Assembly: GCF_024181725.1 (NCBI RefSeq)
Contig: NZ_CP028908.1
Coordinates: 1 to 64,000, forward strand
Length of the DNA stretch: 64,000 nucleotides
Direction: 5' to 3'
Source of the DNA: Bradyrhizobium sp. WD16
GTDB lineage: Bacteria > Pseudomonadota > Alphaproteobacteria > Rhizobiales > Xanthobacteraceae
The notes under the pieces are model-generated. The model searched no databases, was not told the DNA's origin, and was given only the letters and a program-made list of their open reading frames with translations. The position numbers and the translations under genes were made by a program. Position 1 is the first letter of the stretch; each line of letters opens with the position of its first letter. This document shows positions 38,036 to 61,291 of this stretch, piece after piece.

Positions 38036-38129
38036 TGCGGGTGATCGCAGCTCGGTCGCATCGCGCGGGGCAGCTCCTGGGTTTGCGACGGAACCGATGT
38101 GCGCGACCCGCAAGCCTTTCGGGGCAGTC

Positions 38130-38732
38130 ATGAGTGCGGCGATTTTGCCTGCAATCCTCTGGATCATCAGCATGGCCGCGCTCATTGCCGCCGCGATCGT
38201 CGACTTTCGACATCGCATCGTGCCCAATCGGATCGTGCTTGTGGTCGCGCTGTGCGGTGTCGGCCTCCGTCTCTGGTCCGAGCCCGGCGCGATCTGGCTG
38301 GCGCTGCTGACGGCCGCAATCATTGTCGTCGCACTCGGTCTTGTCGCCCGTCTGGGGTGGATCGGGGGCGGGGACGTCAAGCTGATCGGCGCCGTGAGCC
38401 TGCTTTTCCCATCGTCCGACATCGGCGCCTTGCTGCTGAATATCGCTGTCGCTGGAGGATTGATGGCGCTTGCTTACCTGGCGGTGCGGCCGGCGATTGT
38501 CCGCAAGCCTCGCCTGCACCTGGCGACGACGCCAGATCCCACCGCGGATGTGACAAAGAACTCCGCCCGACAACATGTCATCAGGTGGCGCGGCCATCTT
38601 TTCGACCGTGAGCGACTGCGCATCGCGGCACGCGGGCCGATGCCATACACGGTGGCCGTGCTGGGGGGAGTCGTCATTCGTCTCGTCAGCGAGGCTATCC
38701 AATGCTTGTCCGCAACCTCCTGCTTGCTCTAG
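38130..38732 (+). CDS. cpaA: Prepilin peptidase CpaA/TadV
   Basis: About 200 aa from ATG 38130 (ATG 38097 is in frame and possible). Membrane protein with the A24A aspartyl protease motifs: AAIVDFRHRIVPN (first Asp) and GWIGGGDVKLIGA (GxGD motif). It processes the Flp pilin and probably the TadE/TadF-type pseudopilins. The C-terminal 60 residues extend beyond the minimal peptidase, and the end overlaps cpaB by 31 nt. Confidence 0.9.
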   Translation: MSAAILPAILWIISMAALIAAAIVDFRHRIVPNRIVLVVALCGVGLRLWSEPGAIWLALLTAAIIVVALGLVARLGWIGGGDVKLIGAVSLLFPSSDIGALLLNIAVAGGLMALAYLAVRPAIVRKPRLHLATTPDPTADVTKNSARQHVIRWRGHLFDRERLRIAARGPMPYTVAVLGGVVIRLVSEAIQCLSATSCLL

Positions 38733-39703
38733 GCGTCCTGGCGCTGATCGCCGGAATCGCGCTCGCCGCGATCTGGTTCACCCAGTCGGCGCCCCGTCCG
38801 GCCACGGAAGTCAAAGCGCCGCCGCCCGTCCGGCAAGCCATCCTGGTTGCGGCGCAGCCAATCCGCACCGGCACGTTGCTGCGAGCCGAGGACATGACCT
38901 CGCGCGACACGCGCCCCACCGAGCTTCGGCCCGGCAGTCTCATGCGTGGCCAGGAAGCGGAATTCGTGGGGGCCATCGCCCGGCGCGATCTTGGCGCCGG
39001 CGACCCGCTCATCGCCAGCGATTTCGTCAAACCCAGCGAGCGCGGTTTCCTGGCTGCCGTGCTGAAGCCTGGAACCCGGGCCATTTCGATCACGGTCGAC
39101 GCGCCGCAGAGCTCGTCCGGCCTGATCCAGCCGGGCGACCGCGTCGATGTCATCCTCGTTCAGAGCCCGGCGCAGACCGCGGGGACCGCCGCCCGCAAGG
39201 ATGTGGTGGCGGAAACGGTGCTGGTCGACGTGCGAGCCATCGCCGTCGATCAGTCGCTCACTGCCGAGGCACGAGGCGCGCAGGCAGAGCGGCGCCCCGG
39301 CGTCGCGCCAAGTATCGTGGAATCACGACTGCCCAAGACGGTAACGCTCGAGGTGACCCCGCGGCAGGCCGAGGTGCTGCTCGTTGCCGCTCAACTTGGC
39401 CAGCTCGGCCTGGCCGTACGCGCCCTTGAAGGTCCCGCCGCCGCCGCGCCGGCCGGCCCGACCACACCGACCTGGGGAACAGATGTATCGACGGCGCTCA
39501 GGCAATCGGGTGCCCGTCCGGGCGGACCGCCGCGCTCCTTTACCACGGGAAGCAGCATCGAGAAATCGATCCGAACCGTGCCACCGCCCGGAGCGATATT
39601 GAGGGCCCCCGCCACGACCGAGCCGAGCGGCAGTGCTCCCGTCGCGGCCCAGCCAAGCGGCAATATCGGAGCTCCCGACCAAACCGACGGAGATACCCAG
39701 TGA
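38702..39703 (+). CDS. cpaB: Tad pilus assembly protein CpaB/RcpC
   Basis: Protein of 333 aa with an N-terminal membrane anchor, a SAF domain (VAAQPIRTGTLLRAEDM) and the RcpC/CpaB core (KPGTRAISITVDAPQSSSGL then IQPGDRVDVILVQSP). It acts in the periplasm with the secretin. The C-terminal 90 residues are rich in Pro, Ala and Ser. It overlaps cpaA and cpaE (GTGA at 39700-39703), so the operon is tightly coupled. Confidence 0.92.
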   Translation: MLVRNLLLALGVLALIAGIALAAIWFTQSAPRPATEVKAPPPVRQAILVAAQPIRTGTLLRAEDMTSRDTRPTELRPGSLMRGQEAEFVGAIARRDLGAGDPLIASDFVKPSERGFLAAVLKPGTRAISITVDAPQSSSGLIQPGDRVDVILVQSPAQTAGTAARKDVVAETVLVDVRAIAVDQSLTAEARGAQAERRPGVAPSIVESRLPKTVTLEVTPRQAEVLLVAAQLGQLGLAVRALEGPAAAAPAGPTTPTWGTDVSTALRQSGARPGGPPRSFTTGSSIEKSIRTVPPPGAILRAPATTEPSGSAPVAAQPSGNIGAPDQTDGDTQ

Positions 39704-40887
39704 GCGACGTTGCCTCCCGCGGCGCCGACATTGCCGCCACCACGACCGCGGCGGTCTACGTATCCGACGAGAATTCCGTGGGCGTGATACGTCAGGCCTT
39801 CAATGATCTCGGGCTGACCAATGCCAAATTCACATTGGGCAACATCCGGACGGCCACGACCGAGATGGCCCGGCAGTCCTCTCCGCGGCTGCTCATCGTC
39901 GATATCAGCGACATCGACGACCCGGGGTCGCGCATCAGTGAACTCGCTCAGGTATGCGAGCCGGAAACTGCCGTGATCGTCATCGGCGAGGCCAACGACA
40001 TCAGGCTCTACCGCGAATTGAGGACCGCCGGCGTCAGCGAATATTTCTACAAGCCGCTCGTCCGAAACGTCATGACCCACGCCTGCAATGTCGTTCTCAG
40101 CGGCGCCGAAAAGTCGCCCGGCCCCCGCGGCGGACGGCTCGTCTTCGTGCTGGGCGTACGCGGCGGTGTCGGGGCGACGACGATTGCGGTCTCGACCGCC
40201 TGGCATCTCGCCGAACAGCACAAGCGATGGACGATGCTGCTCGACCTCGACCTCAGCGCCGGGGATGCCGCCCTGCAGTTCGATGCAACGCCCGGCCGCG
40301 CATTGGCCGAATCCTTCGAGCGCCCCGAACGCGTCGACCAGTTGTTTCTCGAACGGGGCGTCGTCCACATCGCTCCCCGGCTCGACCTGCTTGCATCGCT
40401 GGAACCGCTTGAAAGCATGGTCGCGGTTCAGGAAACCGCCATGCTCTCGCTCGTCGATATGTTGCTGCGCCGTTATCGTTTCCTGTTCATCGACGTCCCG
40501 GCCATTTCGGCGCGCAAACTCAGTCAGGTGCTGCACTTGCCGAGCCTGTGCGTCCTGGTCAGCAACGGAAGCCTGACCTCCGCGCGCGACGTCGCGCGCT
40601 GGCGACAGCAAATTGGACCCAATACTCCCGAGCGCTCGACGATCCACGTCCTCAACCGGAGTGGATCCGCCGGCAGCCTGCCGGAAGCGGAATTCGTCCG
40701 GGCGGTCGGCAAGCCTCCCGATATCGTCATTCCCTACGACCGGGAGATCGGCGCAGCTTCGCTTCTCGGCATCAAGGGCCTCAAGAACTGCGCTGCGCTC
40801 AAGAGCGCCCTGGCGCCGCTCGTGAGCCAGTTGACCGGGGACGTCGCCGTCCCGACCCGTTCATTCCTCAGCCGCCTGTTTGGATAA
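39700..40887 (+). CDS. cpaE: Tad pilus localisation ATPase CpaE/TadZ
   Basis: Protein of 395 aa with GTG start. A receiver-like N-terminal domain (about 15-130; the phospho-acceptor region reads LLIVDISD) precedes a MinD/ParA-like domain with a deviant Walker A (GVRGGVGATTIA) and the LLDLDLSAGD motif. CpaE/TadZ proteins place the pilus machine at the cell pole. The lysine of the standard deviant Walker motif is replaced (GGVGATT), as in other CpaE proteins. Confidence 0.9.
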   Translation: MSDVASRGADIAATTTAAVYVSDENSVGVIRQAFNDLGLTNAKFTLGNIRTATTEMARQSSPRLLIVDISDIDDPGSRISELAQVCEPETAVIVIGEANDIRLYRELRTAGVSEYFYKPLVRNVMTHACNVVLSGAEKSPGPRGGRLVFVLGVRGGVGATTIAVSTAWHLAEQHKRWTMLLDLDLSAGDAALQFDATPGRALAESFERPERVDQLFLERGVVHIAPRLDLLASLEPLESMVAVQETAMLSLVDMLLRRYRFLFIDVPAISARKLSQVLHLPSLCVLVSNGSLTSARDVARWRQQIGPNTPERSTIHVLNRSGSAGSLPEAEFVRAVGKPPDIVIPYDREIGAASLLGIKGLKNCAALKSALAPLVSQLTGDVAVPTRSFLSRLFG

Positions 40888-40890
40888 CCC

Positions 40891-42297
40891 ATGTCCTCAT
40901 TCGGAAAAAAAGGTGAGCTGCCGCTGACCGAGGAAGACACCGTTCCTCCCCCGTCCTTGCTGGTGCCGCAACCGCCTGCGCGGGCCCGCCCCGAACCGGA
41001 GACCCTTCGACCGGGAACGACCACCAGCGATGCCATTCACGAGCAAGTCCTGCAGAAAATCGAACCCGGCGTCGCAGTGCAACTCACCCGCGAGGAGCTG
41101 ACGACCCGTGTTCAACACATGGTCGCGCAAATCGCCAGCGAGCAGCGCTTGACGCTGAACCAGCAAGAGCAGGACACCCTCGCGGTCCATATCGTCGACG
41201 AGATGGTCGGGCTCGGGCCGCTCGAACCGCTTCTCCGGGACACATCGGTCTCCGACATCCTCGTCAACGGCCCCTTCATGATCTACGTCGAGCGCCGGGG
41301 CAAGCTGGAGCTGGTCAAGCTGCAATTTCGCAACGACGCCCACGTCCTGCATGTCGCGCAGCGCATCGCGTCGTCCATCGGGCGGCGCGTCGATGGATCG
41401 AGTCCGATGCTTGACGCGCGCCTCGCCGACGGCAGCCGGGTCAACGTCATCATCGCACCGTTGAGCCTCAGGGGAACCTGCGTGTCGATCCGCAAATTTT
41501 CGCGCAACATCGTCGAATTCTCGAAATTCACCGAACTCGGGACCGTGTCGAGCGAACTCGCCCGCGCGCTCGAGATCTGCTCTCGCTGCCGCCTCAACAT
41601 CATCATCTCCGGCGGCACCGGCTCGGGCAAGACCACGGTGCTCAACGCGCTGTCGGGCATGATCGATCCGGGCGAGCGCATCATCACCATCGAGGACGCG
41701 GTCGAGCTGCAACTGCAGCAGCCTCACGTCATCCAACTCGAGACACGTCCGCCCAACATCGAGGGCCACGGTGAAGTCACCCAGCGCGACCTGATGAAGA
41801 ATTGCCTGCGCATGCGGCCCGACCGCATCATCCTCGGCGAGGTCCGAGGCGGCGAGGCGTTCGACATGATGCAGGCCATGAACACCGGCCACAGCGGCTC
41901 GATGTCGACGATCCACGCCAACTCGGCCCGCGACGCGCTGGCGCGCATCGAGAACATGATCCTGATGGCCAACGCCAATCTTCCGTTACGTGCGATCCGC
42001 GGACAGATCGTCAGCGCCATCGACCTCCTGGTTCACACCGAACGCATGCGCGACGGCGTTCGCCGGGTCGTTGAGGTCGCCTATGTGGCCGGGCTGGAGG
42101 CGGAGACGATCTCCCTGGGGACCCTGTTCCAGTTCAAATTCCTTGGCGAGAACCCCGACGGCACTCTTCGCGGCACATTCAAGGCGTCACCGGCGCGGCC
42201 GCGTTTCCTGGGGCGGATGGAATATTTCGGCCTGGCTCAGGCCTTCCTGGATACGCTCGGTACCCGTAGCGAAAACCTAGAGGAACGGGAACGCTGA
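40891..42297 (+). CDS. cpaF: Tad pilus secretion ATPase CpaF/TadA
   Basis: Hexameric VirB11-like ATPase of 468 aa. Walker [10 protein letters not shown] lies at about residues 241-249, followed by an Asp box ([11 protein letters not shown]), Walker B ([15 protein letters not shown]) and a His box ([13 protein letters not shown]). It powers pilus extension and probably retraction. Gaps to neighbours are 3-4 nt. Confidence 0.95.
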
Positions 42298-42301
42298 TCG
42301 C

Positions 42302-43261
42302 ATGCTCCAGCTTCAGATTGGCTTTGTTCTGCTATTGATCGTGAGCAGCTGCCTTCTGATCGTCGCCTACAGAATGGGGCGGTCGGACCGGTCGAGCCTG
42401 GCCCATCGCGTCGACCTGATCGCCATCACGGCTCCGGTCGCCGCCGCCGAGACTGTCACCGCGCCGCCGCGGACCAGGCCACCGGGGTGGATCGACGAGG
42501 CGACGCGGCGATTATTTTGCGTCGGCCTGCCCTATCGCTGGGGCATGCGGAGCGGCGGGGGCAAGATATTGGCGTTGGCGACGGTCGCCGCCGCCGTCGT
42601 CGGACTGCTGGCTTACCGCGCCCTCGGCCATTCCTCCCCGCTGGCAATTGCGCTCGCAGCGCTGGCCTTTGCGCTGGTTCCCCGCCAGATCCTGAAGCGC
42701 GAGCAGGCGCAGGCCGAGCGTCAGTTCATGGATCTGTTTCCCAACGCCATCGACATGATCGTCCGCATGCTGCGATCGGGCCTGCCGATCGTCTCGGCGA
42801 TGCGTGTGGTCGCCACCGAATCGCCGCCGCCGTTCAGCACGGTCTTTGCCCTGATCGCCGAACAGGTCGACGTCGGCGTGCCCTTCGAAAAGGCACTCGA
42901 CATGGTGAGCGAGCGGCTCGGCATTCAGGAATTGCGGTTCTTTTCGGTCGCGGTGACGCTGCAGTATACGACGGGCGGCAATCTCGCGGCGACGCTGGAC
43001 ATTCTCGCCGATGTCATCCGCAAGCGACGCGCCGTGCGCCTCAAGGCGATTGCGGCGACGGCGGAAGTGCGGATCTCGACTTACGTCCTCGGTGGGATGC
43101 CGATTCTGACAATCGTAGCCCTCATGGTCCTTAATCCCTCCTATGTCGCGCCGCTGCTGTACGATCCTCGCGGAAAGTTCGTCGTCGGCGCGGCCGTGGG
43201 GCTGCTCTCGACCGGGATCTTTATCATGCGCAGACTGATGCGCAGGGTGACGGAGGCTTAG
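42302..43261 (+). CDS. tadB: Tad inner-membrane platform protein TadB
   Basis: Protein of 319 aa with the T2SF/GspF-type domain (FPNAIDMIVRMLRSGLPI, then FSVAVTLQYTTGGNLAATL) and three to four membrane helices. With TadC it forms the platform on which CpaF acts. The TAG stop (43259-43261) is the first three usable bases of palindrome D, so the C-terminus has been set by the element. The long array that follows separates it from tadC by 512 nt. Confidence 0.93.
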   Translation: MLQLQIGFVLLLIVSSCLLIVAYRMGRSDRSSLAHRVDLIAITAPVAAAETVTAPPRTRPPGWIDEATRRLFCVGLPYRWGMRSGGGKILALATVAAAVVGLLAYRALGHSSPLAIALAALAFALVPRQILKREQAQAERQFMDLFPNAIDMIVRMLRSGLPIVSAMRVVATESPPPFSTVFALIAEQVDVGVPFEKALDMVSERLGIQELRFFSVAVTLQYTTGGNLAATLDILADVIRKRRAVRLKAIAATAEVRISTYVLGGMPILTIVALMVLNPSYVAPLLYDPRGKFVVGAAVGLLSTGIFIMRRLMRRVTEA

Positions 43262-43699
43262 TGTCCTGTTTCCAACGTTCGTATGCCATTGCAGCAGGCG
43301 CTCATACGAACGTTGGAAACAAGGGGACACTAGCATCATTATGATTCTAGTGTGGTTTTGGATCTGACGCTCGTTCGAAGAACTCGCTGCAATACTGAAA
43401 CGAGCGTCAGATCCACCACACTAGTGTCCCGTCTCCGAATTACCGCTACGTTTGCCTCGCGCTCGCACGGTAATTCGGAGACATAGGGACACTAGCAAAA
43501 TCAAAATGCTAGTGTGGCTTATGTCTCGCAATTGCCTACAGGGGCTTGCCGCAAAGGGCATAGGCAATTGCGAGACGCCACACTAGCTAAATGAAAGTTC
43601 TAGTGTGGCTTATGTCTCGCAATTGCCTACGAGAGGCTTGCCGCAAAGGTGGTAGGCAATTGCGAGACGCCACACTAGTGCCCGCTTTCCGAAGTTCAT
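43258..43699. repeat. Composite palindrome array D-A-C-B-B inside the tad operon
   Basis: D 43258-43333 (starts TTAG), spacer CTAG-catcattatgatt-CTAG, A 43347-43424, C 43421-43495 (shares CTAG with A), spacer CTAG-caaaatcaaaatg-CTAG, B 43509-43586, spacer CTAG-ctaaatgaaagtt-CTAG with outer CTAGs shared, B 43600-43678, then a 25-bp broken arm resembling D (to 43699). The first four units have the same order and spacers as the array at 52069-52398. It lies between tadB and tadC on the transcribed strand, where several strong hairpins could attenuate or process the mRNA. Confidence 0.93.
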
Positions 43700-43773
43700 C
43701 TGGCTTTGACGCGCTCCCTCCTGCGAACAGTCTCGCTCTGGGCCGCTCTGGCCGAACCAAGGTGTGAGATCAG

Positions 43774-44715
43774 ATGTCGACATCGTTCACCCTGGCGCCG
43801 GCGCTGCTGGCGATCTTCGCGGCGATCGCGCTCGCCGTCAGCGGCGCGATCCTGATCGCATCGAGCATTCGCATCGGCCGCGAAGCGATCGCGCGGCGCA
43901 TCGATCTGGTCAAAATCCCCGAGACGGTCGCGCCAGCGCCAAAAGCTGGCTCTCTGGAGAAGGAGAAACGACCGGCCAGCTTGCGCCGGCTCGGCCTCTC
44001 CGAGCGCGATCAGATCGAGGTGATCCGACGAGCGGCCATGCTCGGCATTCCCGCGACTTACGCGGCATCGGCCTTCATCGTGAGCAGGATCGCCACCGCG
44101 ATCGGTCTCGCTCTGCTTTTGTTTCTTGCGGTGAGACATTTCGGCTCGTCATCGTATTTCGCAGTCGGCGCGTTCGTTGCCGTCGTGATCGGCCTCGCCG
44201 TGGGGTGGCTGCTTCCGGCCATCCTGATCCAGATGAGTGCGACGCGGCGGGCCAAAGCCGTCGCCGCCTCGATGCCCGAAGCTCTGGATCTGATGGTGGT
44301 GTGCGTGGATGCCGGTCTTTCGCTCGAGAATGCGCTGGTTCGTGTGGTGAACGAACTCAGGCATTCCCGGCCGGCATTGGCGGAGGAGCTGGCGATCACG
44401 TCGGCGGACATGCAGATTCTGCCGAGCCGGGACGAGGCGCTGACGCGCCTGGCGGACCGCGTCGAGCTGCCGAGCATCAGATCGGTCGTCACGACGCTGG
44501 GCCAGTCGCTGCGCTACGGTACGCCACTTGCCCAGGCGCTCCGCGTGATCGCCGCGGAAATGCGCGCGGACGCCTTGATCCAGCTGGAAGAACGCGCCAA
44601 TCAGCTCCCTGCCCTTCTGACCGTGCCGATGATGTTGTTCATCATGCCGACCATATTTCTGGTCGTCGGCGGCCCCGCCGCCCTGCAGCTCATCGACGCG
44701 TTCTCGCGGCGCTGA
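43774..44715 (+). CDS. tadC: Tad inner-membrane platform protein TadC
   Basis: Protein of 313 aa with the T2SF domain (MPEALDLMVVCVDAGLSLENAL, written here in two halves MPEALDLMVV and CVDAGLSLENAL) and a second helix region ending in the MMLFIMPTIFLVVGGPAALQ hydrophobic tail. Paralogue of TadB and its partner in the platform. It starts 75 nt after the palindrome array. Confidence 0.93.
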   Translation: MSTSFTLAPALLAIFAAIALAVSGAILIASSIRIGREAIARRIDLVKIPETVAPAPKAGSLEKEKRPASLRRLGLSERDQIEVIRRAAMLGIPATYAASAFIVSRIATAIGLALLLFLAVRHFGSSSYFAVGAFVAVVIGLAVGWLLPAILIQMSATRRAKAVAASMPEALDLMVVCVDAGLSLENALVRVVNELRHSRPALAEELAITSADMQILPSRDEALTRLADRVELPSIRSVVTTLGQSLRYGTPLAQALRVIAAEMRADALIQLEERANQLPALLTVPMMLFIMPTIFLVVGGPAALQLIDAFSRR

Positions 44716-52068: not shown

Positions 52069-52398
52069 CTAGTGTCCCGTTTCCAACGTTCGTATTCCTT
52101 TGCAGCAGGCGCTCATACGAACGTTGGAAACAAAGGGACACTAGCATCATTATGATTCTAGTGTGGTTTTGGATCTGACGCTCGTTCGAAGAACTCGCTG
52201 CAATATTGAAACGAGCGTCAGATCCACCACACTAGTGTCCCGTCTCCGAATTACCGCTTCGTTTGCCTCACGCTCGCACGGTCATTCGGAGACATAGGGA
52301 CACTAGCAAAATCAAAGTGCTAGTGTGGCGTATGTCTCGCAATTGCCTACGAGAGGGTTGCCGCGAAGGCGGTAGGCAATTGCGAGACGCCACACTAG
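52069..52398. repeat. Composite palindrome array D-A-C-B
   Basis: D 52069-52144, spacer CTAG-catcattatgatt-CTAG, A 52158-52235, C 52232-52306 (shares CTAG with A), spacer CTAG-caaaatcaaagtg-CTAG, B 52320-52398. Same order, orientation and spacers as the first four units at 43258-43586. C here has a stem mismatch (GAATTACC facing GGTCATTC). It sits between the large kinase start (51920, minus) and the FixK/FNR-like box at 52524. Confidence 0.93.
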
Positions 52399-55305: not shown

Positions 55306-55358
55306 CTAGTGTCCCGTCTCCGAATTACCGCGTTGTTTGCCTCACGCTCGCATGGTAA
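55306..55358. repeat. Broken palindrome C
   Basis: Left arm, loop and five bases of the right arm of family C (CTAGTGTCCCGTCTCCG to CATGGTAA), then the match stops. The right arm and terminal CTAG are absent; the RAYT-type element begins within 30 bp. The insertion or a later deletion has removed the other half. Confidence 0.8.
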
Positions 55359-55387
55359 CGAATTTCGAATTTCGTAATTTCGATTTC

Positions 55388-56232
55388 GGTGACAGTGCAC
55401 TTAATTCCAATTTCGGTGACAGTGATTTCGGTGACAGTGCACTTAATTCCGACGCAATGCGCCGGGCGCCGCCGCTCTCATCGCTCCTCCCATTCCGCCG
55501 GCTTCGGCCCGCGCTTGCCCGGCTTGAGCACCCGCCCCGTCAGCTTCTCGATCCGGGTCAGGAAGCGGTCGCTTCCAAGCGGCCGGCCGATGCTCTCGGC
55601 GGCGCGCAGCTTCGCGAACAGATCATCCTCATCGTCCGGCGTCGTCGTCAGCAGCCCGGCGATGTCAGGAAAAATCTCCCGCACCGCCCCGCGTGCGGTC
55701 ACACCGTCGTCCCTGCCGCGCAGATGCGCACGCGTGCTCGACCAGCTCCAATCCTGGGCGCGCGCGACCAGCCGCGCCCGCACCGGGTTGAGGCTGACAT
55801 AACGCAACGCGGCGGCGAGATGCGCCTCGTCCATCGCCACCGCGCCGAACCGGCCCTGCCAGAAATGCCCACTGCGCTTGCGGCGCGCCTGCACGATCCC
55901 CGCATAGATGCGATGCACGCGCGACAGCGCCCGACGCAGGCCGTCCGCATCCGACGGCACCAGGATCAGGTGCACATGGTTCGGCATCAGGCACCATGCC
56001 CACACCTCGACCTCCGCGGCGCGACAATGAGTGGCGAGCAGATCGCGGTAGAGGATGTAATCGTCGTCGCTGAAGAACGTCCGCGCCCGCCCGTTACCAC
56101 GCTGGGTCACATGGTGGGGCAGACCGGGAACGACGACGCGGGCAAGACGGGCCATGGCTCATCCTGCCCGTGTCGTTCGCTGGCGTCAATTAAGTGCACT
56201 GTCACCATAATTCATAATTCGTCACCATAATT
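55388..56232. mobile_element. RAYT (REP-associated tyrosine transposase) unit with its own repeats
   Basis: Left side: GGTGACAGTGCACTTAATTCC twice (55388-55408, 55430-55450) plus a short GGTGACAGTG (55415-55424). Right side: the inverted AATTAAGTGCACTGTCACC (56188-56206) followed by a partial GTCACCATAATT (56221-56232). The transposase gene lies between on the minus strand. The repeats differ from the CTAG palindromes, so this element probably mobilises its own sequences. Confidence 0.82.
55478..56155 (-). CDS. REP-associated tyrosine transposase (RAYT, Y1/HUH family)
   Basis: Protein of 225 aa, single-domain HUH nuclease. It starts MARLARVVVPGLPHHVTQRG, has the histidine-hydrophobic-histidine motif MPNHVHLIL (His60, His62) and the catalytic tyrosine region ALRYVSLNPVRARLV (Tyr119), plus FWQGRF and a basic C-terminal tail. 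RAYTs cut and join single-stranded REP palindromes and spread them between genes. All key residues are present, so it is probably active or recently so. Confidence 0.9.
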   Translation of the reverse strand: MARLARVVVPGLPHHVTQRGNGRARTFFSDDDYILYRDLLATHCRAAEVEVWAWCLMPNHVHLILVPSDADGLRRALSRVHRIYAGIVQARRKRSGHFWQGRFGAVAMDEAHLAAALRYVSLNPVRARLVARAQDWSWSSTRAHLRGRDDGVTARGAVREIFPDIAGLLTTTPDDEDDLFAKLRAAESIGRPLGSDRFLTRIEKLTGRVLKPGKRGPKPAEWEER

Positions 56233-56285
56233 CCCGAAACCTGCGAGCCGGCTGCGGATCTGACGTGTGAATACGATAGCCGCGC

Positions 56286-60961: not shown

Positions 60962-61291
60962 CTAGTGTCCTGTCTCCGAATTACCGCTTCGTTTGCCTCA
61001 CCCTCGCACGGTCATTCGGAGACATAAGGACACTAGAAAAATCAAAGTGCTAGTGTGGCTCATGTCTCGCGATTGCCTAGGAGAGGCTTGCCGCAAAGGC
61101 GGTAGGCAATTGCGAGACGCCACACTAGTGTCCTGTCTCCGAATTACCGCTTCGTTTGCCTCACCCTCGCACGGTCATTCGGAGACATAAGGACACTAGC
61201 AAAATCAAAGTGCTAGTGTGGCTTATGTCTCGCAATTGCCTAGGAGAGGCTTGCCGCAAAGGCGGCAGGCAATTGCGAGACGCCACACTAG
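60962..61291. repeat. Tandemly duplicated C-B palindrome pair
   Basis: C 60962-61036, spacer CTAG-aaaaatcaaagtg-CTAG, B 61050-61128, C 61125-61199 (shares CTAG), spacer CTAG-caaaatcaaagtg-CTAG, B 61213-61291. The unit repeats with a period of 163 bp with few differences, so the duplication is recent. It occupies most of the gap before the HisKA_2 kinase gene. Both C copies carry the same stem mismatch. Confidence 0.93.

Follow-up and report, generated by a model that had tools for sequence, protein, structure and literature searches.

The five hairpins that separate tadB from tadC in Bradyrhizobium sp. WD16 belong to a small parasitic DNA element of which the genome carries about a thousand copies. 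The array they form is, with good probability, a cluster of non-autonomous MITEs of the IS630 type (Tc1/mariner-like DDE), mobilised by an IS630-type transposase. We document the architecture and copy number of these elements, their CTAG boundaries, nesting and stop-codon positioning, and a lineage-specific match between IS630 ends and palindrome arms. In the mechanism we infer, an IS630-type transposase would act in trans on dimer units, each of which would insert at the rare tetranucleotide CTAG and leave CTAG on both sides through duplication of either TA or CTAG; landing on a C-TAG stop codon would spare the gene. At the tadB stop, an A-B dimer would have been joined by a C-D dimer sharing its CTAG, plus an extra D, in a presumed stepwise accumulation of that order that would have pushed tadC 512 nt from tadB.

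The array lies in a plus-strand tad operon of the window, the 64,000-nt stretch of contig NZ_CP028908.1 that was analysed. The features of the tadB-tadC interval, and two comparable arrays elsewhere in the window, are as follows.

42302..43261, plus strand: tadB; the array has its left foot on the TAG stop codon at 43259-43261
43258..43333, plus strand: hairpin 1, family A, type CC (TTAGTGTCC...GGACACTAG), left half of an A-B heterodimer
43334..43346: 13-nt spacer of the A-B dimer (CATCATTATGATT)
43347..43424, plus strand: hairpin 2, family B, type GG (CTAGTGTGG...CCACACTAG)
43421..43424: CTAG common to hairpins 2 and 3, the junction of the two dimers
43421..43495, plus strand: hairpin 3, family C, type CC
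43496..43508: 13-nt spacer of the C-D dimer (CAAAATCAAAATG)
43509..43586, plus strand: hairpin 4, family D, type GG
43587..43599: 13-nt spacer of an unusual D-D junction (CTAAATGAAAGTT)
43600..43678, plus strand: hairpin 5, family D, type GG
43675 to about 43745, plus strand: what is probably a sixth, decayed copy with a stem of an older type (CTAGTGCCCGCTTTCCGAAGTTC...GCGAAC), from by-eye comparison with relatives
43774..44715, plus strand: tadC
52069..52398, plus strand: second array, with the same A-B-C-D order and spacers
60962..61291, plus strand: C-D-C-D array

The five hairpins of the tadB array span 72-79 bp, with inner arms of 15-19 bp that are 100% complementary and outer arms of 7-9 bp. 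Such palindromes are far outside chance, given the RNA fold of the array (z = -16.3), its DNA hairpins (z = -8.6 to -10.2, with no shuffle as good) and the excess of CTAGTG in the window (44 observed vs 6.3 expected). The decayed sixth element no longer folds (hairpin z +0.81). An Rfam scan of the array returned nothing above the gathering score, only sub-threshold microRNA matches.

The first-pass annotation had described an operon that is tightly packed as far as tadB and then interrupted by 512 nt carrying five hairpins, and the measured gaps and arms agree with that description. Genes from a cpaA-like gene to tadB overlap or lie 3-4 nt apart, and the 512 nt run from the tadB stop (43261) to the tadC start (43774). 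The array starts on the tadB stop codon itself (T-TAG-TGTCC, the foot now being TTAG) and not downstream of it. The gap was short (-1 to 184 nt, typically about 10) in all 30 further tadB-tadC pairs compared, among them the second tad locus of the same genome, and subtraction of the intact array and the decayed copy leaves about 28 nt, an ordinary gap size. The suggestion that the array was inserted inside the operon is supported by the near-zero gap in relatives and by the mobility of the element family. An orthologous empty site between tadB and tadC was sought in relatives and none was found; TadB is only 28-36% identical to its counterparts, so the tadB-tadC locus is unalignable with relatives, the C-terminus of TadB itself being alignable up to residue 313 of 319. 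A search for related loci using TadB gave no match. The tad cluster of the window (38097-44715) is the second, divergent one of this genome, which has another tadB-tadC pair near 2464762-2466648.

All hairpins follow one plan: an outer stem CTAGTGTSS, a one-sided asymmetry of 2-5 nt, an inner stem of 15-16 bp and a loop of ~20 nt. Each palindrome amounts in essence to a pair of terminal inverted repeats (CTAGTGTSS and the 15-16 nt stem) that face inward around the loop. The basic unit is a heterodimer of ~165 nt, in which a CC hairpin is followed by a 13-nt AT-rich spacer and an inverted GG hairpin, with the asymmetric sides facing inward; in the WD16 genome the dimers belong to families A-B and C-D, and single hairpins may be independent units or deletion products. 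Across 1.264 Mb, the 136 junctions shorter than 60 nt comprised 41 shared CTAGs and 95 spacers of 10-14 nt, the spacer being exactly 13 nt in 91 of the 95 and joining mainly C to D (50) and A to B (23). Units chain only through shared CTAG.

Between lineages, the outer six pairs are invariant, and inner pairs have changed on both sides at 14 of 15 positions in the CC type and 14 of 16 in the GG type. Paired cells amounted to 98.9% (CC) and 99.6% (GG), and on the main measures none of 500 shuffles did as well, although these figures are inflated because the cross-lineage hairpins were chosen for long perfect stems. When stems were not selected, inner arms of 15 bp were perfect in 88 of the 127 WD16 hairpins (from 464 kb) and in 120 of 154 foreign hairpins. 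Arm mismatches showed at most a weak excess of GT over AC (8:6 in the WD16 genome, 15:8 elsewhere) and hence no sign of selection at the RNA level, so it is apparently at the DNA level, not the RNA level, that the palindrome is maintained. RNA-level selection was accordingly rejected, the strict double changes being partly an effect of stem selection. Complementarity of the arms despite drift may reflect selection for a transposase that binds both ends, or arm-to-arm correction. Rare, fully symmetric hairpins without the usual asymmetry and one CC/GG chimera (L089:2015-2095, L038:3377-3453, G069:C76:2208-2281) suggest arm-to-arm correction or template switching.

The elements are non-coding, dispersed and of high copy number, with units of 72-79 bp, as is typical of IS630-type MITEs. 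Copies with perfect feet (CTAGTGT...ACACTAG) numbered 712 in 5.95 Mb, vs 0 for the reversed control pattern. With relaxed feet, 247 copies were counted in 1.264 Mb of the genome, or about 200 intact copies per Mb and ~1.5% of the DNA, which extrapolates to ~1,160 copies genome-wide. They fall into four stem families (A-D), and arrays adjoin unrelated genes at 111 places in 1.26 Mb; since the same array types recur across the genome and elsewhere in the window, the array at tadB is not specific to tad. The same architecture with other stems was present in 11 of 60 relatives, all 11 in the same bacterial family. The exact doublet pattern occurred at no fewer than 119 loci, whose labels were almost all Alphaproteobacteria or simply Proteobacteria; hosts among the matches listed were Bradyrhizobium, Afipia, Nitrobacter, Caulobacter, Phenylobacterium, magnetospirilla, Acidiphilium, Mesorhizobium, Devosia and Parvularculaceae, together with one MAG labelled Marinimicrobia. 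Spread by plasmids or phages was considered and rejected: the window dimer had no plasmid match, foreign dimers matched one plasmid site type only (in 8 Roseibium/Labrenzia plasmids), and the doublet pattern was found in 5 IMG/VR contigs. Many contigs of a Parvularculaceae MAG (G069) start ~65 nt before a GG hairpin, and arrays therefore appear to break assemblies.

IS630 elements prefer CTAG as a target. Insertion of the palindromes is at TA, preferably within CTAG, a tetranucleotide found outside the elements only 87 times in 464 kb vs 4383 times for GATC, and the foot bases are 94-99% conserved at the four CTAG positions. Nested units record such insertions. A-B dimers sit within C-D dimers at a CTAG foot as C~[A~B]/D, C~[B~A]/D, C/[A~B]~D and C/[B~A]~D, and C-D sits within A-B as A/[D~C]~B (tilde, spacer; slash, CTAG). 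Six such nested arrangements were seen, with CTAG restored on either side of the inserted dimer; C~D dimers that carry no insertion are present in many copies and represent the empty site. No orthologous empty site was found in a sister genome. CTAG flanks both IS copies and nested dimers on either side, and duplications of TA and of CTAG look alike here.

Because CTAG can be a stop codon, insertion at C-TAG leaves the gene intact. Of 56 array ends that face a gene 3' end, 14 lay exactly on a C-TAG stop and none at another negative offset or in the other two frames, counts that for the genome arrays rest on a crude gene caller; the array at tadB is one of these cases. Among the 19 called genes that end in a CTAG stop, 16 carried an element at that stop, and at foreign loci (among the matches listed) the C-TAG frame was the long open frame 39 times vs 16 and 12 for the other two. 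Precise placement on stop codons, together with the great strength of the hairpins, could also point to domesticated elements that, whatever their origin, are now kept for ending or stabilising upstream transcripts, as are REPs of E. coli. We regard this as unlikely, as no U-tract terminator was found on the plus strand, array contexts (12 convergent, 10 divergent, 32 tandem) show no clear preference for 3' ends once the CTAG-stop effect is set aside, and the rarity of CTAG is alone sufficient to explain the stop-codon bias.

Neither a sigma-70-like promoter nor a plus-strand intrinsic terminator was found around the array. REPs in E. coli reduce downstream expression or create mRNA processing sites, and the stable structured stretch analysed here could possibly lower tadC expression, for instance through polarity, or serve as an mRNA processing site.

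A candidate mobiliser was found by reading the DNA between facing hairpins. The WD16 genome holds an IS630 family of nine near-identical copies of ~1.18 kb, bounded in 9 of 9 by CTAG (CTAG followed by TGTTCCGTCTCGCAA at one end, CAATTGAGAGTCAGGACA followed by CTAG at the other) and in several instances located within palindrome arrays; the transposase matches NCBIfam transpos_IS630 (254 bits) and Pfam DDE_3. The two ends of this IS (CTAGTGTTCCGTCTCGCAAATC; CTAGTGTCCTGACTCTCAATTGCC) are similar to arms D and C. Over the 19 nt beyond CTAGTGT, they agree with the D arms of the same genome at 12-13 positions and with its C arms at 10-12, a match that is clear but partial. Related IS630s occur in G019 and in Bradyrhizobium pachyrhizi (transposase 44-46% identical, broken in the latter), and their ends, CTAGTGTCCTGAACCAGAAGTTCGC and CTAGTGTCC[C/T]GAGTCACAAGTTCGC, match the Bradyrhizobium/Afipia CC arm CTAGTGTCC[C/T]GAATCCGAAGTTCGC at 14-16 of 19 positions. 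Cross-lineage comparisons of IS ends with arms gave 7-13 of 19, mostly 7-11. The WD16 IS ends match the newer stems there, and the G019 and B. pachyrhizi ends match the older stem type found there; two more IS630 ends (from G070 and B. pachyrhizi) keep AAGTTCG 13 nt from CTAG and are otherwise different. Terminal repeats are therefore common to the palindromes and an autonomous IS630, as in IS630-type MITEs.

The distribution of the transposase in part favours this assignment. A related transposase (E <= 1e-30) was detected in 11 of the 21 distinct genomes that bear elements (with G022 and G067, apparently one genome, taken as one) vs 0 of 18 element-free genomes. Against the assignment, most other IS630s of the clade end in CTAGTGGAT or CTAGTCATC. 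In ten element-bearing genomes, including that of Afipia massiliensis with 51 copies, no close homologue of the WD16 transposase was found; elements in genomes lacking this transposase would have to be served by another IS630 clade, or else be relics. No matching IS for the A and B families was found in the WD16 genome. A recurrent transposase gene beside the elements was also sought at the foreign loci (at least 119) and discarded as a candidate, only ABC transporter, histidine-kinase and SDR families having recurred.

The pairing of inverted hairpins across a fixed spacer recalls REP/REPIN elements, in which tagged hairpins, paired in opposite orientation, are copied by a RAYT (Y1 tyrosine transposase, TnpA-REP), an HUH enzyme present in single copy. 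The window contains a RAYT-like gene (55478-56155, minus strand; NCBIfam REP_Tyr_transpos 74 bits, just under the cut-off of 80), and a second RAYT type (alignment A1) occurs more often in relatives that carry the elements (7 of 12 vs 4 of 49). We nevertheless consider a REP/RAYT origin very unlikely and rejected it. The elements are not hairpins of 20-40 bp with a 5' GTAG (or CGTC) tag, their tag being CTAG and not GTAG; no RAYT examined was flanked by them, and none of the type-2 RAYT loci (L151-L159) had CTAGTG inside about 2 kb. The RAYT-like gene of the window is flanked by different repeats of its own (GGTGACAGTGCACTTAATT) and interrupts a C element, which is truncated. Most genomes that bear elements lack Y1 transposases (Pfam Y1_Tnp absent in 12 of 17), and WD16, with the most copies, is without a type-2 RAYT. 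The inverted flanks of the window RAYT lie at 55370-55470 and 56185-56240 (GGTGACAGTGCACTTAATT / AATTAAGTGCACTGTCACC), with the truncated C-type palindrome at 55306 alongside, and homologues of this gene occur in G003 and G011. The type-2 family (~190 aa; alignment A1; L151-L159, L166-L189) is widespread in the bacterial family and co-occurs with CTAG elements above expectation, without lying next to them.

The tad-specific regulatory role implied by the first-pass annotation, as an RNA leader setting tadB:tadC stoichiometry, is extremely unlikely despite the very stable RNA structure immediately upstream of tadC, given that the same array types adjoin unrelated genes at those 111 places, that arm mismatches lack a wobble bias (8 GT vs 6 AC; 15 vs 8 elsewhere) and that the 30 other tadB-tadC pairs have short gaps.

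Among known systems, IS630-related MITEs have already been described (RUP; PMC2229807). Like the elements reported here, RUP of Streptococcus pneumoniae (related to IS630-Spn1) and other TA-bounded MITEs (Correia/NEMIS, ERIC; PMC2229807) are small, non-coding, high-copy and hairpin-forming with terminal TA, and RUP ends likewise resemble those of IS630-type ISs (PMC2229807). Unlike in RUP, Correia and ERIC, the units here are heterodimers of two near-perfect palindromes with a 13-nt spacer, their arms turn over between lineages, they chain via CTAG, and the family spans the Alphaproteobacteria. REP/REPIN with RAYT (PMC2817692, PMC3116915) and GTAG- or CGTC-tagged repeats (PMC3733652) share high-copy inverted hairpin pairs and species-specific stems, whereas the present elements have CTAG at four feet, a length of 72-79 bp, no associated RAYT and ends in common with IS630. 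CIR of Caulobacter and Brucella, in the summary given by PMC2229807, is also alphaproteobacterial, with two inverted-repeat arms and a linker; by that description alone it is set apart by a length of ~110 bp (here ~165 nt) and GANTC at the terminal loop. No GANTC occurs in the A-D stems of WD16, and GATTC/GAATC is confined to the stem base of some lineages. Br-REP1 and Br-REP2 of Bradyrhizobium (PMC5082802) are repetitive palindromes of the same bacterial family but differ in sequence and size and are without CTAG.

The full-text literature searched, which mostly does not cover subscription papers, yielded no description of CTAG-bounded palindromes of this kind, nor of a class-wide family of heterodimers between CTAGs that lands on stop codons and changes along with transposon ends; a prior description is possible. 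The family would supply a concrete mobiliser for abundant alphaproteobacterial palindromes that are easily mistaken for REPs, and a case in which MITE arms and transposon ends change together between lineages; with CTAG as its target, the transposon would use stop codons as safe sites. Such hairpins, when met in operons, should be taken for locus-specific regulation only with caution.

Evenly balanced, in our judgement, is the broader proposition that these are heterodimeric MITEs of the whole alphaproteobacterial class, whose arms co-evolve with IS630 ends in each lineage and which spread with low harm via CTAG stops, until stop-codon CTAGs are mostly occupied and become landing pads for other IS630 families. 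Two further IS630 families of the WD16 genome (201/329-aa and 243-aa frames; ~15 and ~10 copies) sit at CTAG feet of the palindromes, e.g., at L332, L333 and L334, and the palindromes thus act as landing pads or hot spots for ISs.
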